From Sneathiellales bacterium (GTDB lineage: Bacteria; Pseudomonadota; Alphaproteobacteria; JANQFL01): DNA of 56,375 bases. Positions within the stretch are counted from its first letter, which is position 1. Each line of letters opens with the position of its first letter. Location: positions 1 through 56,375 of the forward strand of contig JANQFL010000042.1 in NCBI GenBank assembly GCA_028277845.1, read 5' to 3'. The notes under the pieces were generated by a model. The model was not told the DNA's origin, ran no database searches, and saw only the letters and a list, made by a program, of their open reading frames with translations. Below are positions 17,813 to 27,233 of this stretch, one piece after another. A program made the position numbers and the translations under genes.

Positions 17813-17936
17813 GGAAATGCAATTGTCGAACGTTTTGCAAACTGATCTGGCAGGGTGACCTCCGACACTAACTAACGGAGCGATCCTAGGCATTGCAATT
17901 ACAGGACGATTTTTCTTATCAATGGGAGTTCAAAAT

Positions 17937-19067
17937 ATGGAAGGTGGTTCAGAGACTCGCATAAAAAGAACAGCACGATCTGAGGTAAATACTACTCAAC
18001 CTGGGGCAGCAAGCGGCGACGATGTGTCTCCAGTCGGCACTCTGGTACAACGGATACCAGAGGTCATCCTCAAAAAAACGCCTCCTCGACCTTCACCTGT
18101 TTTCGATACCTATTGGAAATTTGCTGCCGAACGTCAATCGATTTTTCACGCTCGAATCGCAGGAACGCCACAACCATGGACACAAGATACCATCTTGACA
18201 GAGTACAAGTTTACCAATGCTTACAGGGCATCAGATCGTGTGAGCCAGTTCCTCATCCGATATGTGATATATGCAGCAGAGTTTGATTGGAGCTCCACGC
18301 TTCTCCGCATCATCTTGTTCAAAATATTCAATAAGATATCTACATGGGAGCTAATAGAAAGTCAGATCGGCACTATCAACGCGACATCTTTTTCAGCTGA
18401 AAGAATAGGTCATGTGCTGGACAACGAGTTAAGGCGTGGTTCACCTATCTACTCAAGCGCCTACATAATGCCCAGCGGCCCTGCATCAATCCGCCAATCA
18501 CGTAAACATATGATGCACTTGGCTTTGCTTTCTGAAATTGTTAGGGGCCGCCTTTTCAACGATCTGTTGGAGGCTCGGTCGATGGAGGCGGCATATAGGC
18601 TCCTACTAGCGATTCCTAGCTTTGGGCCTTTTTTAGCGTTTCAATTCTTGATTGATCTGAACTACAGCAAGTATCTCAATTTTTCCGAGATGGATTTCGT
18701 GGTACCTGGGCCAGGCGCGCGAGATGGAATCCGCAAATGCTTCTATGATTTTGGTGACTATAATGAAAGTGATGTCATCCGATGGGTGACTGAACGTCAA
18801 GACGAGGAGTTTGCTGTACGAGAAATTAAGTTTCAGTCTCTTTGGGGTCGACACCTACAATTGATTGATTGCCAAAATCTTTTCTGCGAAGTCGACAAAT
18901 ATGCACGGGTGGCTCATCCGGACTTAAAGGGTAGAACTGGTCGAACTCGCATAAAGCAGCGTTTTTCACCCAACCCAAACCAAATTTCTCCATGGTTTCC
19001 GCCCAAATGGGCGCTGAACAAAAAGATCGGACGTTCTTACGCTGCGCCCGGCCCTTCTCTCGAATAG
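17937..19067 (+). CDS. Helical 5-hmdU DNA kinase/thymine pyrophosphorylase-like protein
   Basis: 376 aa from an ATG at 17937 with GGGAG 8 bases upstream (an ATG at 17922 lacks this). An all-helical core starts near residue 55: PVFDTYWKFAAERQSIF, GTPQPWTQDTIL, YKFTNAYRASDRVSQFLIR, then LRIILFKIFNKISTWELI. From memory of the family, these are the motifs of the HMUDK helical domain and the alpha-glutamyl/putrescinyl thymine pyrophosphorylase group, known from phages that hypermodify thymine. No P-loop is present, so kinase activity should not be assumed. Codon use is AT-richer than the flanking genes. The 3' end overlaps the convergent MazG gene by 31 bases. Confidence 0.68.
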   Translation: MEGGSETRIKRTARSEVNTTQPGAASGDDVSPVGTLVQRIPEVILKKTPPRPSPVFDTYWKFAAERQSIFHARIAGTPQPWTQDTILTEYKFTNAYRASDRVSQFLIRYVIYAAEFDWSSTLLRIILFKIFNKISTWELIESQIGTINATSFSAERIGHVLDNELRRGSPIYSSAYIMPSGPASIRQSRKHMMHLALLSEIVRGRLFNDLLEARSMEAAYRLLLAIPSFGPFLAFQFLIDLNYSKYLNFSEMDFVVPGPGARDGIRKCFYDFGDYNESDVIRWVTERQDEEFAVREIKFQSLWGRHLQLIDCQNLFCEVDKYARVAHPDLKGRTGRTRIKQRFSPNPNQISPWFPPKWALNKKIGRSYAAPGPSLE

Positions 19068-20149
19068 GTGAGGCTCTGGGATTCTGCATTCAGCAAGAGC
19101 CAGCCTCCGCGGTTTTTTGTAAGGGCACGAAAGGCCTCATAACCAATGAGCACCGCCCTCTGCCACTCGTGAAGATGGCATTCCTTGACTTCGAGGTTGC
19201 GAACCATGCGACCAATCAGTTTCAAAATGTTGTGGTCAAGACGGTCTAAACCTTCAAGCATCGAATGGCCGAGTGCATAGTTGAAGATTGTATGGGCAAT
19301 AGCTTCCTCAACAATGATGGCTCGCGCTCCATCTTCGACTTCATCTTTCTGAGGTTTACTCTTTCGCTTACAACGCAATATTGCACGTGTAACTGGTGAC
19401 CACCCTAGAACGGCGACATAGGCGAGGTGGAAGGCATCGTGATAACGGTAACCATCATCAATTGCTGCATTATCTGTAAGGCGATCACCAATATTTATGT
19501 TGTGGGCCCGCAATATGACTTCGACACGCCCTTTACCACGTTTTCGCTCTAAAAATTGAATGTCGAGCTTTCTTGGTAGTCTTTCATAAGCTGGATAGTC
19601 TGAACCATCGAAGCAGCGTGCAGGTCCAGGATCGTCTGGACCAAACATACTTCTTACCTTACTCAGATTGGAAGCTAGGACATTAGACACGTTCAGCTTT
19701 TGTGCTTTCAGAGCCTGCAGTGTCGCGCGGCCTGAAGCACCAATGCTTTTTGCGAGCGCTTGTTTTTGGGCAGGCGTTGGATTGTTGGGCAAGCTTTCAA
19801 AATTGTTTGCGAGATGAGGAATCGTCCTCACCATCGAATAAACGTGTCCGTATGGTTCCTTCGGGATCTTGAGGGGAGGTGTCTGCTTGATCAAATCAGC
19901 TAGATCAAAACCATAGTGGGAACACAACGCAGCCAAATACCAAAGAACATCTCCAAACTCTTCAACCAAGTTCACCTCACCGTCAGTATAGGCGTATCCA
20001 TCCCTCAAGGACTTCTTGAGCTCTGATACCACTGATCCGAGCTCGCCAATAACACCGAACGCAGGAATGTGACGTTTGGCGGAATCGTTCCAGTCTATCT
20101 GTGCAGTTTGAAATGCTTGCTTTTGATATTTGCTCAGATTCATGCTCAT
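19037..20149 (-). CDS. MazG-like nucleotide pyrophosphohydrolase with large C-terminal domain
   Basis: 370 aa. Residues 30-90 are MazG-like: GVIGELGSVVSELKKSL followed by LVEEFGDVLWYLAALCSHYG, giving Glu36, Glu43 and Glu64-x2-Asp67. The second Glu of the usual ExxE is Ser39. Members of this fold hydrolyse (d)NTPs to NMP and pyrophosphate. A second domain (about 200-360) has DGYRYHDAFHLAYVAVLGWSP and ARAIIVEEAIAHTIFNYA, resembling the MazG C-terminal domain found in modified-nucleotide systems. The ATG at 20149 overlaps the upstream stop (ATGA) and has GAGG before it. Last gene of the operon. Confidence 0.75.
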   Translation of the reverse strand: MSMNLSKYQKQAFQTAQIDWNDSAKRHIPAFGVIGELGSVVSELKKSLRDGYAYTDGEVNLVEEFGDVLWYLAALCSHYGFDLADLIKQTPPLKIPKEPYGHVYSMVRTIPHLANNFESLPNNPTPAQKQALAKSIGASGRATLQALKAQKLNVSNVLASNLSKVRSMFGPDDPGPARCFDGSDYPAYERLPRKLDIQFLERKRGKGRVEVILRAHNINIGDRLTDNAAIDDGYRYHDAFHLAYVAVLGWSPVTRAILRCKRKSKPQKDEVEDGARAIIVEEAIAHTIFNYALGHSMLEGLDRLDHNILKLIGRMVRNLEVKECHLHEWQRAVLIGYEAFRALTKNRGGWLLLNAESQSLTYSREGPGAA

Positions 20150-20961
20150 GTCGTGACCTCAACATGGCCATCTCGAATCTGCTTGCAACGCTCCAGAAGC
20201 TGAACGATATCCCTTCGGCGCCATTGAACAGAACTGTCAAGCTGGCGATCTTCCAACATGGCCATCGTGGCGTGGCACACAAGTGGCCCAACCTGAATTC
20301 CAACTTCACGCGCTATTGCCGCTTGCAATCTAGCTAGACCGAGCAAATTGCCAATCGCCTTTTGCGTGTAGAACTGATAGCGATAAAGAGCAGTCAAGTA
20401 GAGTTCTCGATTCGGGCCGAGCTTGAGGCTGATATGGCTAAGGCATTGACCACCGCGATTGTTGTTGTGATCGTTCTCAATGGAATAGAGTTTGAGTTCG
20501 AGTGGTTCTAGGCCCAAATCCAATTCATAAACCGCTCTCTTTGGCGACCGTGTCGATAGTTGCTTCTTCAGTTTGTTGATGGCCAACTCTAATGGTGCCA
20601 ACTTCGTTCCATCTGAACATTTTCGCTCGGTCAAGCGAAGTGCATACGTCCCCCACCGGTTTTGCTGTACGTTCCGAATATGCGGATAGACCGATTCTGG
20701 GTAATTATATACCGCTTCCATTCCGCCTTGCCGGTATTCGGTCGCTGGGAAGATCGTCTCGGCGACCGTGTGGTTCGGTTGAGCATGAAACTTCCGAAGA
20801 AAAGTGTCTAACTCTTTCTCAATTGCACGAGAAACTGAGGTAACTAGTCCGGGCTGTTCGACCTCCAACACCACATTGTAAAGGCGAGCGTGCGCATTTT
20901 CCAAAGCTAGTGCAGTTGCAAGCCAGGCTTCCGCCCTGGTCGTTTTGCTCTCTACGAACAT
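20146..20961 (-). CDS. Thymidylate synthase-fold protein
   Basis: 271 aa from the ATG at 20961 (GAGG 6 bases upstream). The stretch from residue 172 aligns by eye with the active-site region of thymidylate synthase: QCLSHISLKLG against PCHAFFQFYV places Cys173 on the nucleophile, LYRYQFYTQKAIGNLLGLA on [20 protein letters not shown] with Asn205 on the conserved Asn, and GIQVG on DLEVG. The Arg-Ser-x-Asp block itself is not kept. TS-like enzymes also include dUMP and dCMP hydroxymethylases. Assignment rests on pattern only. It starts 10 bases after the protease stop, so it is in the same operon. Confidence 0.6.
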   Translation of the reverse strand: MFVESKTTRAEAWLATALALENAHARLYNVVLEVEQPGLVTSVSRAIEKELDTFLRKFHAQPNHTVAETIFPATEYRQGGMEAVYNYPESVYPHIRNVQQNRWGTYALRLTERKCSDGTKLAPLELAINKLKKQLSTRSPKRAVYELDLGLEPLELKLYSIENDHNNNRGGQCLSHISLKLGPNRELYLTALYRYQFYTQKAIGNLLGLARLQAAIAREVGIQVGPLVCHATMAMLEDRQLDSSVQWRRRDIVQLLERCKQIRDGHVEVTT

Positions 20962-20971
20962 TTTTACCTCG

Positions 20972-21628
20972 CTACATGTGCGGAACCACCGACGCGTAAC
21001 CAATGAGTTTTTCTTTGACATATTCGGTCGACATCCACGCATAACCTTTATCGGCCCAGGAAGTCCCCCAGCTATTTCGGATTAGAAAAAACAAGTGACC
21101 GATAGTGTCGTTGCCAAGACCAACGACCAGGACCGCATGCCCACCAAATCCATCGCCATCAGCTGAGATGGTGAAGTTGGGCCGGCTAGGTGAAAGAAAT
21201 TCGGGGGAAACCTTGATACCTAATACCACGGGTTGCCCATTGCTAATCAGCCGCACAATCTCGGCAGACGCATTTACAGTGTTGTGCTTAAGGTTGCCGT
21301 GCCATATTTCCGTGACTAGGGGAGGTGTCCAGGGGTTCGGTTGCGTCAAGCTGTATGGCCACTCTAGTTCCGACGGTTGGCCGTTCTGCGCCAGTGCCAT
21401 CGTAGCTTCCTCGAAAGTAATACCGTCAAAGACATTTCCAACATTGGCGATTAGAACTGCGTGATAGAATAGGAATTCGGCGGATAGTGGCACGCAGTTA
21501 TGAAACAAAGTATGGGCATCGCTCGTAGCACAGGCGAGACACGTTGATCGATCGCCTTGATCACGAACTGCATCCAGTTCACCCCGGAGATCTACGGCCG
21601 CAGTAATCGCGCCACCCCCTGTCGTCAT
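20972..21628 (-). CDS. Papain-like (C1 family) cysteine protease
   Basis: 218 aa, the size of a bare catalytic domain with no propeptide or signal sequence, so it is probably cytoplasmic. Oxyanion Gln24 and nucleophile Cys30 are in VRDQGDRSTCLACAT, His164 in FGGHAVLVVG, and Asn185 in FLIRNSWGTSWADKGYAWM. The start ATG overlaps the upstream ImmA/IrrE stop (ATGA). Lack of a propeptide means activity must be restrained in another way, and the neighbouring chagasin-like domain offers one. Confidence 0.85.
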   Translation of the reverse strand: MTTGGGAITAAVDLRGELDAVRDQGDRSTCLACATSDAHTLFHNCVPLSAEFLFYHAVLIANVGNVFDGITFEEATMALAQNGQPSELEWPYSLTQPNPWTPPLVTEIWHGNLKHNTVNASAEIVRLISNGQPVVLGIKVSPEFLSPSRPNFTISADGDGFGGHAVLVVGLGNDTIGHLFFLIRNSWGTSWADKGYAWMSTEYVKEKLIGYASVVPHM

Positions 21629-22620
21629 GCCGCAAGAACACGCCCGGAACGCGGAATTCCTTCTGGTTCTCGCCCGACGAGCGCTAATTCAATCTCAAAG
21701 GTATTGCGGCTTTGTTGAGATACATCCCAGGCGCGACGCTCCTCAAGAAACAAGCGCTTGTGACCTTCTCCTTGTAGAACCAAACGTCGCTGGACACGGC
21801 CGCCTAACCGATCTTCATTGGCAGTGAATCGATCATCCTGCTCGAGCGACATTCCGGCGAGCGCGATCGCTTTAGCATCCCACGTGTAGCCACTTGCGAC
21901 ATTCTCGTCCAATTCTAGTACGATCAAATCATCAGGGCTGCCAAGGATATGAGCACCGCGGTCTTTTTCCGACACCAGCCAAACATCTCTATGCCAGTTC
22001 TCAGGTTTCATATCTGGAACAGCACGTTGTTTTGCGACTTTTGGTTCCACACTCAGCAGCCGCATGACGGTTTCACGATCTAGGAATCTTTGAGAGAGAA
22101 GCGCCCAGCACGTCGCCGAGTAGCTCGTCCCCAACCTCAATGACAATTGATAGACGAAGTCAGGCTGCTGTAAATGCGAGCGGCCCCAGTTCTGTCTAAG
22201 TAGATGAGCTGCGATAAGCCATTTGGGAAGTAAGAACTCCGCAGCAAACGCGTCTGCCTCAATTTCCTGATGATCATGCTTCGAGGTCTCGCCACGACCA
22301 ACGAATCCGACGACGGCGTCCAGACTCAATACCTTGTGTTCTAATATGTGATGTCCCAATTCATGAGCGGCTGTGAAGCGTTGAACATGAAGATCACGCT
22401 TGGTCGTGACCAATATGCCAGATAGCGCTCGAGTCGGCACGTATGCACCGAGGAGACCGTCGAGTGGTCGGAACATCAAGAATAGACCGAGCCTTTGCAC
22501 TGCACCCAAAACATCAACGGCACGGTCTCCGGCTGCTAATTCATCACGCACACCGAGTCTCTCGTGCAGGTCGGTTGCGCGAGCTACGCCAGTTAGAATT
22601 GCGTCACGCCGGGAAACCAT
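21625..22620 (-). CDS. ImmA/IrrE metallopeptidase with C-terminal chagasin-like (I42) domain
   Basis: 331 aa. The M78 zinc motif is AAHELGHHILEH (His86, Glu87, His90), with EIEADAFAAEFLLP supplying the third ligand. ImmA/IrrE proteins cut or inactivate XRE-type repressors. Residues about 225-315 have the three loops of chagasin: NVASGYTW (240-247, for NPTTGY), RLGG (271-274) and ERRAWD (294-299, for RPW), with beta-strands between. Chagasins inhibit papain-like proteases, and such a protease is encoded next. The start is 1 base from the upstream XRE stop. Confidence 0.8.
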   Translation of the reverse strand: MVSRRDAILTGVARATDLHERLGVRDELAAGDRAVDVLGAVQRLGLFLMFRPLDGLLGAYVPTRALSGILVTTKRDLHVQRFTAAHELGHHILEHKVLSLDAVVGFVGRGETSKHDHQEIEADAFAAEFLLPKWLIAAHLLRQNWGRSHLQQPDFVYQLSLRLGTSYSATCWALLSQRFLDRETVMRLLSVEPKVAKQRAVPDMKPENWHRDVWLVSEKDRGAHILGSPDDLIVLELDENVASGYTWDAKAIALAGMSLEQDDRFTANEDRLGGRVQRRLVLQGEGHKRLFLEERRAWDVSQQSRNTFEIELALVGREPEGIPRSGRVLAA

Positions 22621-22621
22621 T

Positions 22622-22957
22622 TCAAGTTTCTACTTTGGATCGAAGCACGAGATATTCGCTGAACCGCATAAGCTCATCACGATCCTGTTGAGAAAGTTTG
22701 GCAACTTGCTTAGCAAGTATCGTCACATCGTCACCCATCGTTTGCGCCTCTTCGCCGGTAAAAAACCCGATCGGCTGCTGATACAATTTGGCAAGAGCCT
22801 TTAGTTCTAGCGCTTCGACCCCACGATGGGCGGTTTCAATGAGAGATATCGCTGAGCGAGATAGTTTGACAGCGCCAGCTACTTCTTGCTGCGATAGCCC
22901 GAGATACTCCCTGGCCTCCTTTAGTTTGGCAGCAATTTTTTCTCTATCTGTCGGCAT
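22622..22957 (-). CDS. XRE family transcriptional regulator
   Basis: 111 aa. Helix-turn-helix at residues 8-62: LKEAREYLGLSQQEVAGAVKLSRSAISLIETAHRGVEALELKALAKLY. The remaining residues are a short charged helix region, probably for dimerisation. ATG at 22957 with GAGG 9 bases upstream. It directly precedes the ImmA/IrrE gene, the standard repressor/anti-repressor pairing, and it is the natural candidate to bind the palindromes at 23325-23370. Confidence 0.9.
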   Translation of the reverse strand: MPTDREKIAAKLKEAREYLGLSQQEVAGAVKLSRSAISLIETAHRGVEALELKALAKLYQQPIGFFTGEEAQTMGDDVTILAKQVAKLSQQDRDELMRFSEYLVLRSKVET

Positions 22958-22986: not shown

Positions 22987-23313
22987 CTACTCAGCAGCGA
23001 CGGAATGGGCTGCTGTGACGACGCAATGTTTGGCAATATTTGCAATAAGGTCAGTTACAGCCTCATCAACGCTCTCATACCCCCCCTTCCGAATCCATTT
23101 GGGTTTGAGTTTCTGGCCCGTCATAGCGAGCACAATTGGAGATAGTTTGCATACAGTTTTAGAGTCAACCGTCGGAAGATCCCAAAGGTCGGTCTCCGGC
23201 TCGGGTTGCCAGGCACAATCTTTAAGCTCTTTCTGCAAGCCGTATGTCAGGGCGGATTGAAGCTCAGCCCGTTTTCCTTCGAACTCAGAAGGCGTCATCT
23301 TTGCGGTAACCAT
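22987..23313 (-). CDS. Unknown 108-aa protein, first gene of the island operon
   Basis: 108 aa, not recognised. It is soluble and mixed in charge: MTPSEFEGKRAEL, then a Trp-rich stretch (DCAWQPEPETDLWDLP) and a C-terminal helix. ATG at 23313 with GGAG 7 bases upstream. It follows the twin palindromes, and the XRE gene starts 29 bases after its stop, so it opens the operon. No defined domain. Confidence 0.62.
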   Translation of the reverse strand: MVTAKMTPSEFEGKRAELQSALTYGLQKELKDCAWQPEPETDLWDLPTVDSKTVCKLSPIVLAMTGQKLKPKWIRKGGYESVDEAVTDLIANIAKHCVVTAAHSVAAE

Positions 23314-23380: not shown

Positions 23381-24028
23381 TTATATTGAAAGCCATGCAA
23401 TAGCAAGTGTAAGCCCTTGTTTTTTTTCGAAGATTATCGAGGGCCCCGAAACAATAGCGGCAATACTCTGATCCAGAACCGACTCGGGTTTAGCCCTAAG
23501 AAGGCCACCAGTCGATTGAGCTAGCTCAACTTGTGTGAAGTCTAAGTCCATATCCCCCGTAATCGATGACTGGCATTTGAAAAGCGCCTCTTTAGCGGAA
23601 AACAGTAGGCGCGCCGCATCTTCGTAATCGTTTGCAAATGGATGTGTAATCAACGCTTTGATCTCGTCGCCCCGTCCAACTTCACGTGAGATAGAGCCCA
23701 AGTTGCGGCCATCCTCAATATCGATACCAACCGAGCGAACTTGGGAAGTTGGTGCTACCGCGACCACTACATGCGTACCACTGTGAGCAATACTGCCGCA
23801 CAGCCCCACCGGCCAGCAAGGAGCACCATTAGGGCGCCGCATTATCTGCTGTTCAACATGTCCCAATTCGACTAATGCTCGTCTAGCCAACACCCGACCA
23901 GCAATTATCTCCTTTTGCCGAGCAGGTACTGCACCTTCAAGCAAGTCAAACTCCTCCCCTACCAAAAATCCTTGGGCATCATTAATTCGACTAGTTTTCA
24001 CGACAATAGAATTTGGGCGAGAAGCCAT
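23381..24028 (-). CDS. 4'-phosphopantetheinyl transferase superfamily protein
   Basis: 215 aa from the ATG at 24028 (the frame is open to 24064; MVVLFAMASRPN would be the longer form). Signature blocks of Sfp/EntD-type enzymes are visible: CGSIAHSGTHVVVAVA, VGIDIEDGRNL and LLFSAKEALFKCQ, carrying the Asp/Glu metal ligands and the Lys. These enzymes attach phosphopantetheine from CoA to carrier proteins. It ends 11 bases before the twin operators and is oriented into the operon. No carrier protein is evident here. Confidence 0.85.
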   Translation of the reverse strand: MASRPNSIVVKTSRINDAQGFLVGEEFDLLEGAVPARQKEIIAGRVLARRALVELGHVEQQIMRRPNGAPCWPVGLCGSIAHSGTHVVVAVAPTSQVRSVGIDIEDGRNLGSISREVGRGDEIKALITHPFANDYEDAARLLFSAKEALFKCQSSITGDMDLDFTQVELAQSTGGLLRAKPESVLDQSIAAIVSGPSIIFEKKQGLTLAIAWLSI

Positions 24029-24123
24029 GGCAAATAATACAACCATATGAACCCATGCTGCCAACGTTTATTCTATTGAAACTCTTTGCAACCGACTGCC
24101 ACACCGGGTGCGCCAAACCAGCC

Positions 24124-26427: not shown

Positions 26428-26874
26428 CTACTCCGTTCTGGTTTTAGGCGCCGGCGTGCCGGGAGAAAAATCAATTTCCAATATCCGACCGGCTGGTTTT
26501 TCAATATTCGAATTCGGTGTGTTGCTTGCGGCGGCCTCTACCCTGCTCTTTACAATCGCACGCAATGCGTCGCGTTCAGAAACAAGGGAGTCAATCTCGG
26601 CTGCGGTCGTCAAGACAAGGCTTTCCCCACACGCATCAGCGTAGCGTGCCATCAGATCGAGAGGCGGCATGTTTTCGACCTTGCCGTTTTCCAGCTGGGA
26701 AACTCGCGGTTGGGAGATGTCGAGCGCCGCTGCCATTTTCTTTTGGGTCAATCCTGCGCGGCTGCGCATCGCACGCAAAACGGCACCGGCGGATTTTGCC
26801 ATTTCGGCGACGATCCAGGCATCGTGCAGTGCCGGATCCAGTCGTTTTTTCTCAATAAGGTCCTTTATGCTCAT
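26428..26874 (-). CDS. XRE-type regulator, possible antitoxin
   Basis: 148 aa. Residues 29-88 are a clear helix-turn-helix: AGAVLRAMRSRAGLTQKKMAAALDISQPRVSQLENGKVENMPPLDLMARY. A C-terminal tail of 50 residues contains coiled-coil-like SLVSERDALRAIVKSRVE. The start ATG overlaps the stop of the upstream gene (ATGA). The order toxin-like gene then helix-turn-helix gene is that of HigBA systems, so an antitoxin role is possible. Confidence 0.75.
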   Translation of the reverse strand: MSIKDLIEKKRLDPALHDAWIVAEMAKSAGAVLRAMRSRAGLTQKKMAAALDISQPRVSQLENGKVENMPPLDLMARYADACGESLVLTTAAEIDSLVSERDALRAIVKSRVEAAASNTPNSNIEKPAGRILEIDFSPGTPAPKTRTE

Positions 26875-27233
26875 TCCACAACCTGACCTTCAAGCAACCT
26901 TTTATCAGCCCGCTTGACGAAATCGAATAGCCACTCAACCAACTCGGAGCGGCCCTCTGCAAATGCGGTCGCCAACAACGTCACCCGTTCCTCGTTGTCC
27001 TCACCTTGCACTTGAATAGCGCATCTGATCGGCCCGTCCGTAAACAACCAGATGTCGTTTTCGCCGGTTCGAGTCCAATCGTGGCGGGCGGCTCCGAATC
27101 CCTGGGTGTAAATTTGGTCGAGGCTTCCCAGCAAGCTGATGTACGCTTCCGTATGGTCGCGCGGCATCCCGGTCACCAGCAGCCTGTTCAGTTCATCCTC
27201 CGCATTGAAGCCCGGACCACAAACGTAATGCAC
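26871..27233 (-). CDS. Unknown 120-aa protein upstream of XRE, toxin-like position
   Basis: 120 aa from a GTG at 27233. Not recognised with confidence. The order WTRTGENDIWLFTDGPIRCAIQVQ followed by a charged segment and a C-terminal KRADKRLLEG helix loosely recalls small beta-strand-rich RelE/HigB-like proteins, but no conserved catalytic set is visible. It is coupled by ATGA to the XRE gene. Upstream DNA is AT-rich. Confidence 0.5.
   Translation of the reverse strand: MHYVCGPGFNAEDELNRLLVTGMPRDHTEAYISLLGSLDQIYTQGFGAARHDWTRTGENDIWLFTDGPIRCAIQVQGEDNEERVTLLATAFAEGRSELVEWLFDFVKRADKRLLEGQVVE

Follow-up and report, generated by a model that had tools for sequence, protein, structure and literature searches.

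A chagasin-like domain fused to an M78 metallopeptidase and its predicted papain-like target in a carrier-protein operon

How a papain-like protease that lacks a propeptide might be restrained inside a bacterial cell is the question raised by a locus of a Sneathiellales bacterium (GCA_028277845.1, contig JANQFL010000042.1), which we analysed as a stretch of 56,375 nucleotides, hereafter the window. An earlier note on this DNA proposed that an ImmA/IrrE-type (M78) metallopeptidase fused to a chagasin-like inhibitor holds the adjacently encoded protease inactive. In our best explanation, which as a whole we consider somewhat better than evenly supported, the chagasin-like (I42) domain holds the papain-like (C1) protease inactive under M78/XRE control of the CapP/CapH style, and the I42-C1 pair has been inserted into a mobile operon for nucleotide or DNA modification that is built around a carrier protein.

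The fusion protein (331 residues; 21625..22620, minus strand) matched two Pfam families, namely Peptidase_M78 (PF06114) over residues 42-170 (1e-10) and Inhibitor_I42 (PF09394) over residues 230-311 (1.7e-7), the latter with 31.8 bits, above the curated Pfam cut-off of 27.2 bits. The zinc motif of the M78 domain, HELGH (residues 86-90), is invariant among relatives. In the AF2 model of the fusion (pLDDT 82, pTM 0.84), the I42 domain spans residues 208-315 (21676..21999, minus strand), and VIA-align matched it to EhICP2 (amoebiasin-2, 3m88; Z 12.8, 2.9 Å, 101 residues) and chagasin (2nnr; Z 11.4, 3.1 Å, 101 residues), the structures matched being inhibitors solved alone or in complex with cathepsin L or falcipain. 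The N-terminal M78 part of the model resembled CapP (Z 12.5) and IrrE (Z 12.3). A profile built from eight relatives likewise found amoebiasin-2 for the I42 half (1.8e-11) and CapP and IrrE for the M78 half. The proposed fusion is thus borne out by a Pfam score above the cut-off and a predicted fold at Z 11-13, and the I42-like fold expected for residues 225-315 is what the model gives over 208-315.

The three chagasin loops occur in the order that the earlier note had read, as NVASGYTW (L2; residues 240-247, 21903-21880), RLGG (L4; 271-274, 21810-21799) and ERRAWD (L6; 294-299, 21741-21724), all on the minus strand. Across 20 family members, G244 and W247 are invariant (20/20 each), followed by W298 (19/20), Y245 (18/20) and G273 (18/20), and in this alignment the putative inhibitory loops are among the best-conserved stretches of the I42 domain. 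L6 of the window departs from the usual RPW motif in lacking its Pro: position 297 is Pro in 16/20 family members and Ala in the window (RRAW), and a second departure, RQAR, was seen in locus L006.

The neighbouring gene (20972..21628, minus strand) encodes a papain-like C1 protease and shares a 4-nt ATGA overlap with the fusion gene, as previously noted and as the coordinates of the two genes (22620-21625 and 21628-20972, minus strand) confirm. The protein matched Peptidase_C1 (PF00112) at 7.4e-13 in Pfam, and its profile searched against the PDB scored 6.5e-21, with cathepsins at about 1e-20. For its AF2 model (pLDDT 90), the match to cathepsin S covered 203 residues at Z 23.4. Model residues 9-218 align to residues 2-219 of mature cathepsin S; the open reading frame therefore begins at the mature domain and does not encode a zymogen with a propeptide. 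The catalytic Gln24, Cys30, His164 and Asn185 are each present in 20/20 family members, which agrees with the description of an intact, propeptide-less protease. Because C1 has no propeptide, an inhibitor acting in trans and encoded directly upstream would make a sensible safety catch.

Our profile survey found a C1 gene directly beside the M78-I42 fusion in 25/25 distinct loci, comprising 21 from the first surveys and four new ones (L185-L188) from 385 freshly sampled genomes of the class, so that the same arrangement, which the earlier note had suggested looking for, does recur in other genomes. Proteobacteria, a haloarchaeon and a viral contig are all represented among these loci. Full-length relatives were located on plasmids of sphingomonads, rhizobia, Bradyrhizobium, Burkholderia and a Haloarcula, as well as on genome contigs and one contig of a viral collection; in phage records, the M78 matches were partial and none was full-length. 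The best 16 plasmid matches to C1 (E up to 3e-16) all lay in this cassette, and the next best, from Deinococcus, lay in a different context. Stand-alone I42 genes, mostly short ORFs, were sampled from 398 genomes of the phylum, and of about 25 such loci only 1 had a C1-model match at a distance of up to about 1.5 kb. In the rearranged cassette of L188 (L188:3-3622), the thymidylate-synthase-like (TS-like) gene and acpS have shifted upstream of the XRE gene, and M78-I42 and C1 remain contiguous, followed by MazG; the fusion protein there carries a TGFRW loop, and a clear RPW was not seen. We also observed an independent case of inhibitor-protease adjacency, in which a stand-alone chagasin-like gene adjoins a large C1-like protease gene (L231:1492-3266).

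A sister operon without the I42 inhibitor provides the comparison: C1 was present in 0/17 of its loci, which are distributed over Cyanobacteriota, Acidobacteriota, Planctomycetota, Bacteroidota, Actinomycetota and Pseudomonadota. Its gene order is carrier - XRE - M78 - TS-like - HMUDK_hel - MazG_C, and acpS is frequently present as well. One genome (G558) holds both operon forms, the extended one with I42 and C1 and the simple one (L186 and L205). On a tree of the TS-like proteins, all extended loci tested formed a single clade (support 100/98), to which the actinobacterial type was sister. The loop-bearing I42 and C1 were therefore gained once and then retained jointly over a long time, and its co-occurrence does not amount to a set of independent replicates. 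The suggestion that inhibitor and protease co-evolved stands for adjacency (25/25 against 0/17 in sister operons) and not in the strict sense, given that the mirror-tree distance correlation between I42 and C1 (0.81) fell to a partial correlation of 0.24, an ordinary level, after controlling for the other genes. Both the single origin and the ordinary partial correlation would be expected if I42 and C1 had merely been acquired together and did not interact in the cell. We consider this very improbable, since catalytic residues and inhibitory loops are both conserved across deep divergence, the archaeon included, and the adjacency has outlasted the rearrangement in L188. Instead, a single gain followed by joint retention supports a functional I42-C1 pair. 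Overall, the pairing of I42 as inhibitor with C1 as target is strongly supported by fold, by the conservation of loops and catalytic residues and by exact co-occurrence, and the predicted inhibition of C1 by I42 is well supported.

The same comparison bears on what the I42 domain does for its own metallopeptidase. Where the extended form has I42, the simple-type M78 carries a different C-terminal domain of ~85 aa, for which hhalign found no similarity to I42. Exceptions are the three actinobacterial-type loci (L094, L180, L181), in which this part of M78 begins like I42 but lacks the GYxW/RPW loops, and which have no C1 either; the M78 C-terminus of this type matched the first strands of I42 weakly (hhalign, P 2.4e-4, probability 20%). 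Such replacement at one position, together with the finding that the C-terminal domain of PprI aids activation by ssDNA (PMC10904395), could indicate that I42 serves chiefly for docking or sensing, with C1 as a ligand whose occupancy gates M78 and hence operon repression, and with inhibition of C1 being secondary. The conserved I42 residues, however, coincide with the ones through which chagasin-type inhibitors engage the active-site cleft, which exceeds the needs of a scaffold, and we regard this reading as unlikely.

The genes around the pair bear on what the protease might act upon. A gene 1 nt upstream of the M78 gene encodes an XRE/Cro-type repressor of 111 aa (22622..22957, minus strand; Pfam HTH_31 and HTH_3, PADLOC capH 3e-10), the probable M78 substrate, and this order is kept in the homologous loci surveyed. 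Downstream of C1 lies the gene of the TS-like protein, 271 aa from its probable start at 20961 (20146..20961, minus strand; TIGR03283, 2.5e-7). Its nucleophile-like Cys200 and its Asn232 are invariant in 15 homologues from both operon types (Cys200 being numbered on the 298-aa ORF 20146-21042), and neither PHROGs nor PADLOC gave the protein a name. It is followed by a MazG-like pyrophosphohydrolase with a MazG_C domain (19037..20149, minus strand; Pfam, 1.9e-70) and, convergent with the latter, by a protein with the hypermodification-associated helical domain HMUDK_hel (17922..19067, plus strand; PF18723, 4.9e-104). Many relatives have a UDG-superfamily protein in the slot of HMUDK_hel. The two were not seen together in relatives (L003, L009, L012 and others) and seem to fill one slot beside MazG_C. 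The general order of the cassette is thus carrier - XRE - M78(-I42) - (C1) - TS-like - MazG_C - HMUDK_hel or UDG, in many cases accompanied by a phosphopantetheinyl transferase, and the window genes bring together MazG_C, HMUDK_hel and a TS-type protein, a combination expected of a DNA base hypermodification cluster. Among the cassette copies, the TS-like gene is split over two frames in L006:8643-9477 and L018:10694-11529, by a frameshift or a sequencing error. A second, ordinary protein of the Thymidylat_synt family is encoded near several cassettes (L007:13702-14754, L012:15675-16700 and L178:1653-2708), and in L007 and L012 its gene adjoins a large metallophosphoesterase gene.

From HMUDK_hel to the transferase, the cassette coincides with a sharp low-GC island at 17.9-24.1 kb (GC 0.47-0.53 vs 0.63-0.70), suggesting that it is probably one acquired unit. 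The island adjoins genes that resemble hslV and hslU in their translations. A second, small low-GC patch (26428-27233) downstream of the HslU-like gene contains an XRE gene that overlaps an ORF of 120 aa; the two may form a toxin-antitoxin pair. Several cassette copies have defence genes nearby, including Shedu (L005), AbiEii (L003), an LmuB-like ATPase (L178) and a caspase-like gene (L006). PADLOC applied to the window operon returned generic M78/XRE matches only, and none for C1, the TS-like protein, MazG_C or the carrier.

The carrier protein (108 aa; 22987..23313, minus strand) was recognized from the alignment of its homologues, from their profile, which hit PDB entries of acyl carrier proteins at 1.3e-6, and from three relatives named 'acyl carrier protein' by NCBI. 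Pfam PP-binding was matched by 7/29 carrier relatives, and the window protein itself matched no Pfam family, PP-binding included. Ser51 (codon 23163-23161, minus strand), in a D-S-x motif, is the sole invariant residue (29/29 homologues) and hence a candidate attachment site for phosphopantetheine. Upstream of the carrier gene and within the low-GC island, a gene with a TTG start as listed (23381..24064, minus strand) encodes an Sfp-like 4'-phosphopantetheinyl transferase (Pfam 4PPT_N 8e-18, ACPS 2e-7); such a transferase or acpS was also found beside L005, L006, L008, L010, L033, L036, L055, L061, L178, L179 and L188. The pair is an add-on to a conserved mobile operon that combines the carrier, the TS-like protein, MazG_C, either HMUDK_hel or UDG and in many cases a phosphopantetheinyl transferase, a context that alters what the protease is likely to guard or control.

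Past the Ser region, the carrier has a GGY motif (residues 77-79; 23085-23077, minus strand). The GG at residues 77-78 is present in 20/20 carriers of extended loci and in 0/9 of the simple or actinobacterial carriers aligned, is as conserved as Asp50-Ser51, and as GG(Y/F/L) shares its branch of origin with I42 and C1. The motif is a possible target of C1. Taken further, C1 could be an internal off-switch or maturase of the operon, whose substrate would be the carrier at its GG motif or cargo on the phosphopantetheine arm, with I42 only blocking premature action. That the carrier and its transferase are core to both operon forms fits this idea as well as the GG pattern does, but the correlation comes from a single branch and the GG may be structural, so that we think it improbable.

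Returning to the restraint of C1 by I42, known M78 systems offer a mode of control. In PprI/DdrO and CapP/CapH, the M78 enzyme cleaves an XRE repressor on a signal, and the C-terminal part of PprI is a sensing GAF-like domain. By analogy, the XRE protein of the cassette would repress the operon until a signal, for instance ssDNA, prompts the M78 domain to cleave it; repressor cleavage by PprI and CapP is reported to respond to ssDNA (PMC10904395). The chagasin-type domain, at the C-terminus of M78 where PprI has its GAF-like sensor, would plug the active-site cleft of the adjacently encoded C1 with its three loops and would stand in, in trans, for the propeptide. The M78-I42/C1 complex might come apart when M78 is activated, through self-cleavage, or when an invader attacks it. 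Freed C1 would then become active and cut a partner, the candidates being the carrier (at the GG motif), the repressor and proteins of the invader. Release on phage infection or DNA damage, as suggested in the earlier note, may follow by the same analogy with PprI and CapP, and the cassette would protect its plasmid or host, probably against plasmids or phages.

Another outcome would be abortive infection, in which phage infection frees C1 from I42 and essential host or phage proteins are degraded. A protease without a propeptide, a dedicated inhibitor and a CapP-like regulator would suit such an effector, as would the plasmid and defence-gene neighbourhoods. The operon, however, contains other, nucleotide-active enzymes, and the existence of a sister operon without C1 argues that C1 is not the core effector; we therefore give abortive infection a modest chance at best. 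More tentatively still, and with little expectation that every step holds, one may picture a two-protease latch: the chagasin domain would have taken the place of the sensor in a CapP-like metalloprotease, binding or loss of C1 would couple de-repression of the operon to proteolysis, and freed C1 would act on the carrier at GG and so turn on or off a hypermodification defence, of DNA or nucleotides, that depends on the carrier.

Should the restraint of C1 by I42 hold, an I42 inhibitor would be built into a bacterial stress-sensing metalloprotease, and a propeptide-free papain protease would be restrained by the regulator of its own operon. The strict joint occurrence of I42 and C1 makes such a new protease-controlled switch testable, and operons with and without the pair form a natural comparison with clean genetic controls. 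Furthermore, a carrier protein and a phosphopantetheinyl transferase are added to predicted nucleotide-hypermodification clusters, suggesting carrier-delivered groups, a chemistry that is directly testable.

Compared with known systems, the I42 domain shares with the chagasin/ICP family (MEROPS I42; chagasin, amoebiasin-2) the fold and the three loops, with L2 (T/S)GY/F.W and L6 RPW-type motifs. Members of that family are mostly stand-alone and have been solved in complex with papain-like proteases, whereas here I42 forms part of an intracellular M78 protein and has a protease gene as its partner next door, a pair known from sequence and predicted single-protein models. Like papain and the cathepsins, C1 has the catalytic Gln/Cys/His/Asn and the full C1A fold (Z 23); unlike them, it has no propeptide, is probably cytosolic and has its inhibitor encoded by the upstream gene. 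With CapP/CapH and PprI(IrrE)/DdrO, the locus shares an XRE repressor gene adjoining an HExxH M78 metallopeptidase (fold match at Z 12), but I42 replaces the sensor-like C-terminus and the operon is one of carrier, TS, MazG_C and HMUDK genes; neither Pfam nor PADLOC listed a CD-NTase or Cap effector of CBASS among the operon proteins. DefensePredictor (PMC13092281), in the part of that account used here, lists MazG-C, UDG, aGPT-Pplase, 5-hmdU kinase and TS domains in predicted hypermodification or defence clusters, and treats four of these domains (MazG-C, UDG, TS and 5-hmdU kinase) as parts of defence systems that are either predicted or validated. The cassette shares MazG_C, UDG, TS and 5-hmdU-kinase-type domains with these clusters, and the same part of the account mentions no carrier protein, phosphopantetheinyl transferase, I42 or papain-like protease. 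Our literature search found neither chagasin joined with ImmA/IrrE or phage defence nor I42-M78 with a propeptide-free C1 in a carrier/TS/MazG_C operon, although an earlier computational account of parts of the cassette is possible. Each part of the cassette comes from a known family, and what appears new is the combination of I42-M78 and a propeptide-free C1 inside a carrier/TS/MazG_C operon.
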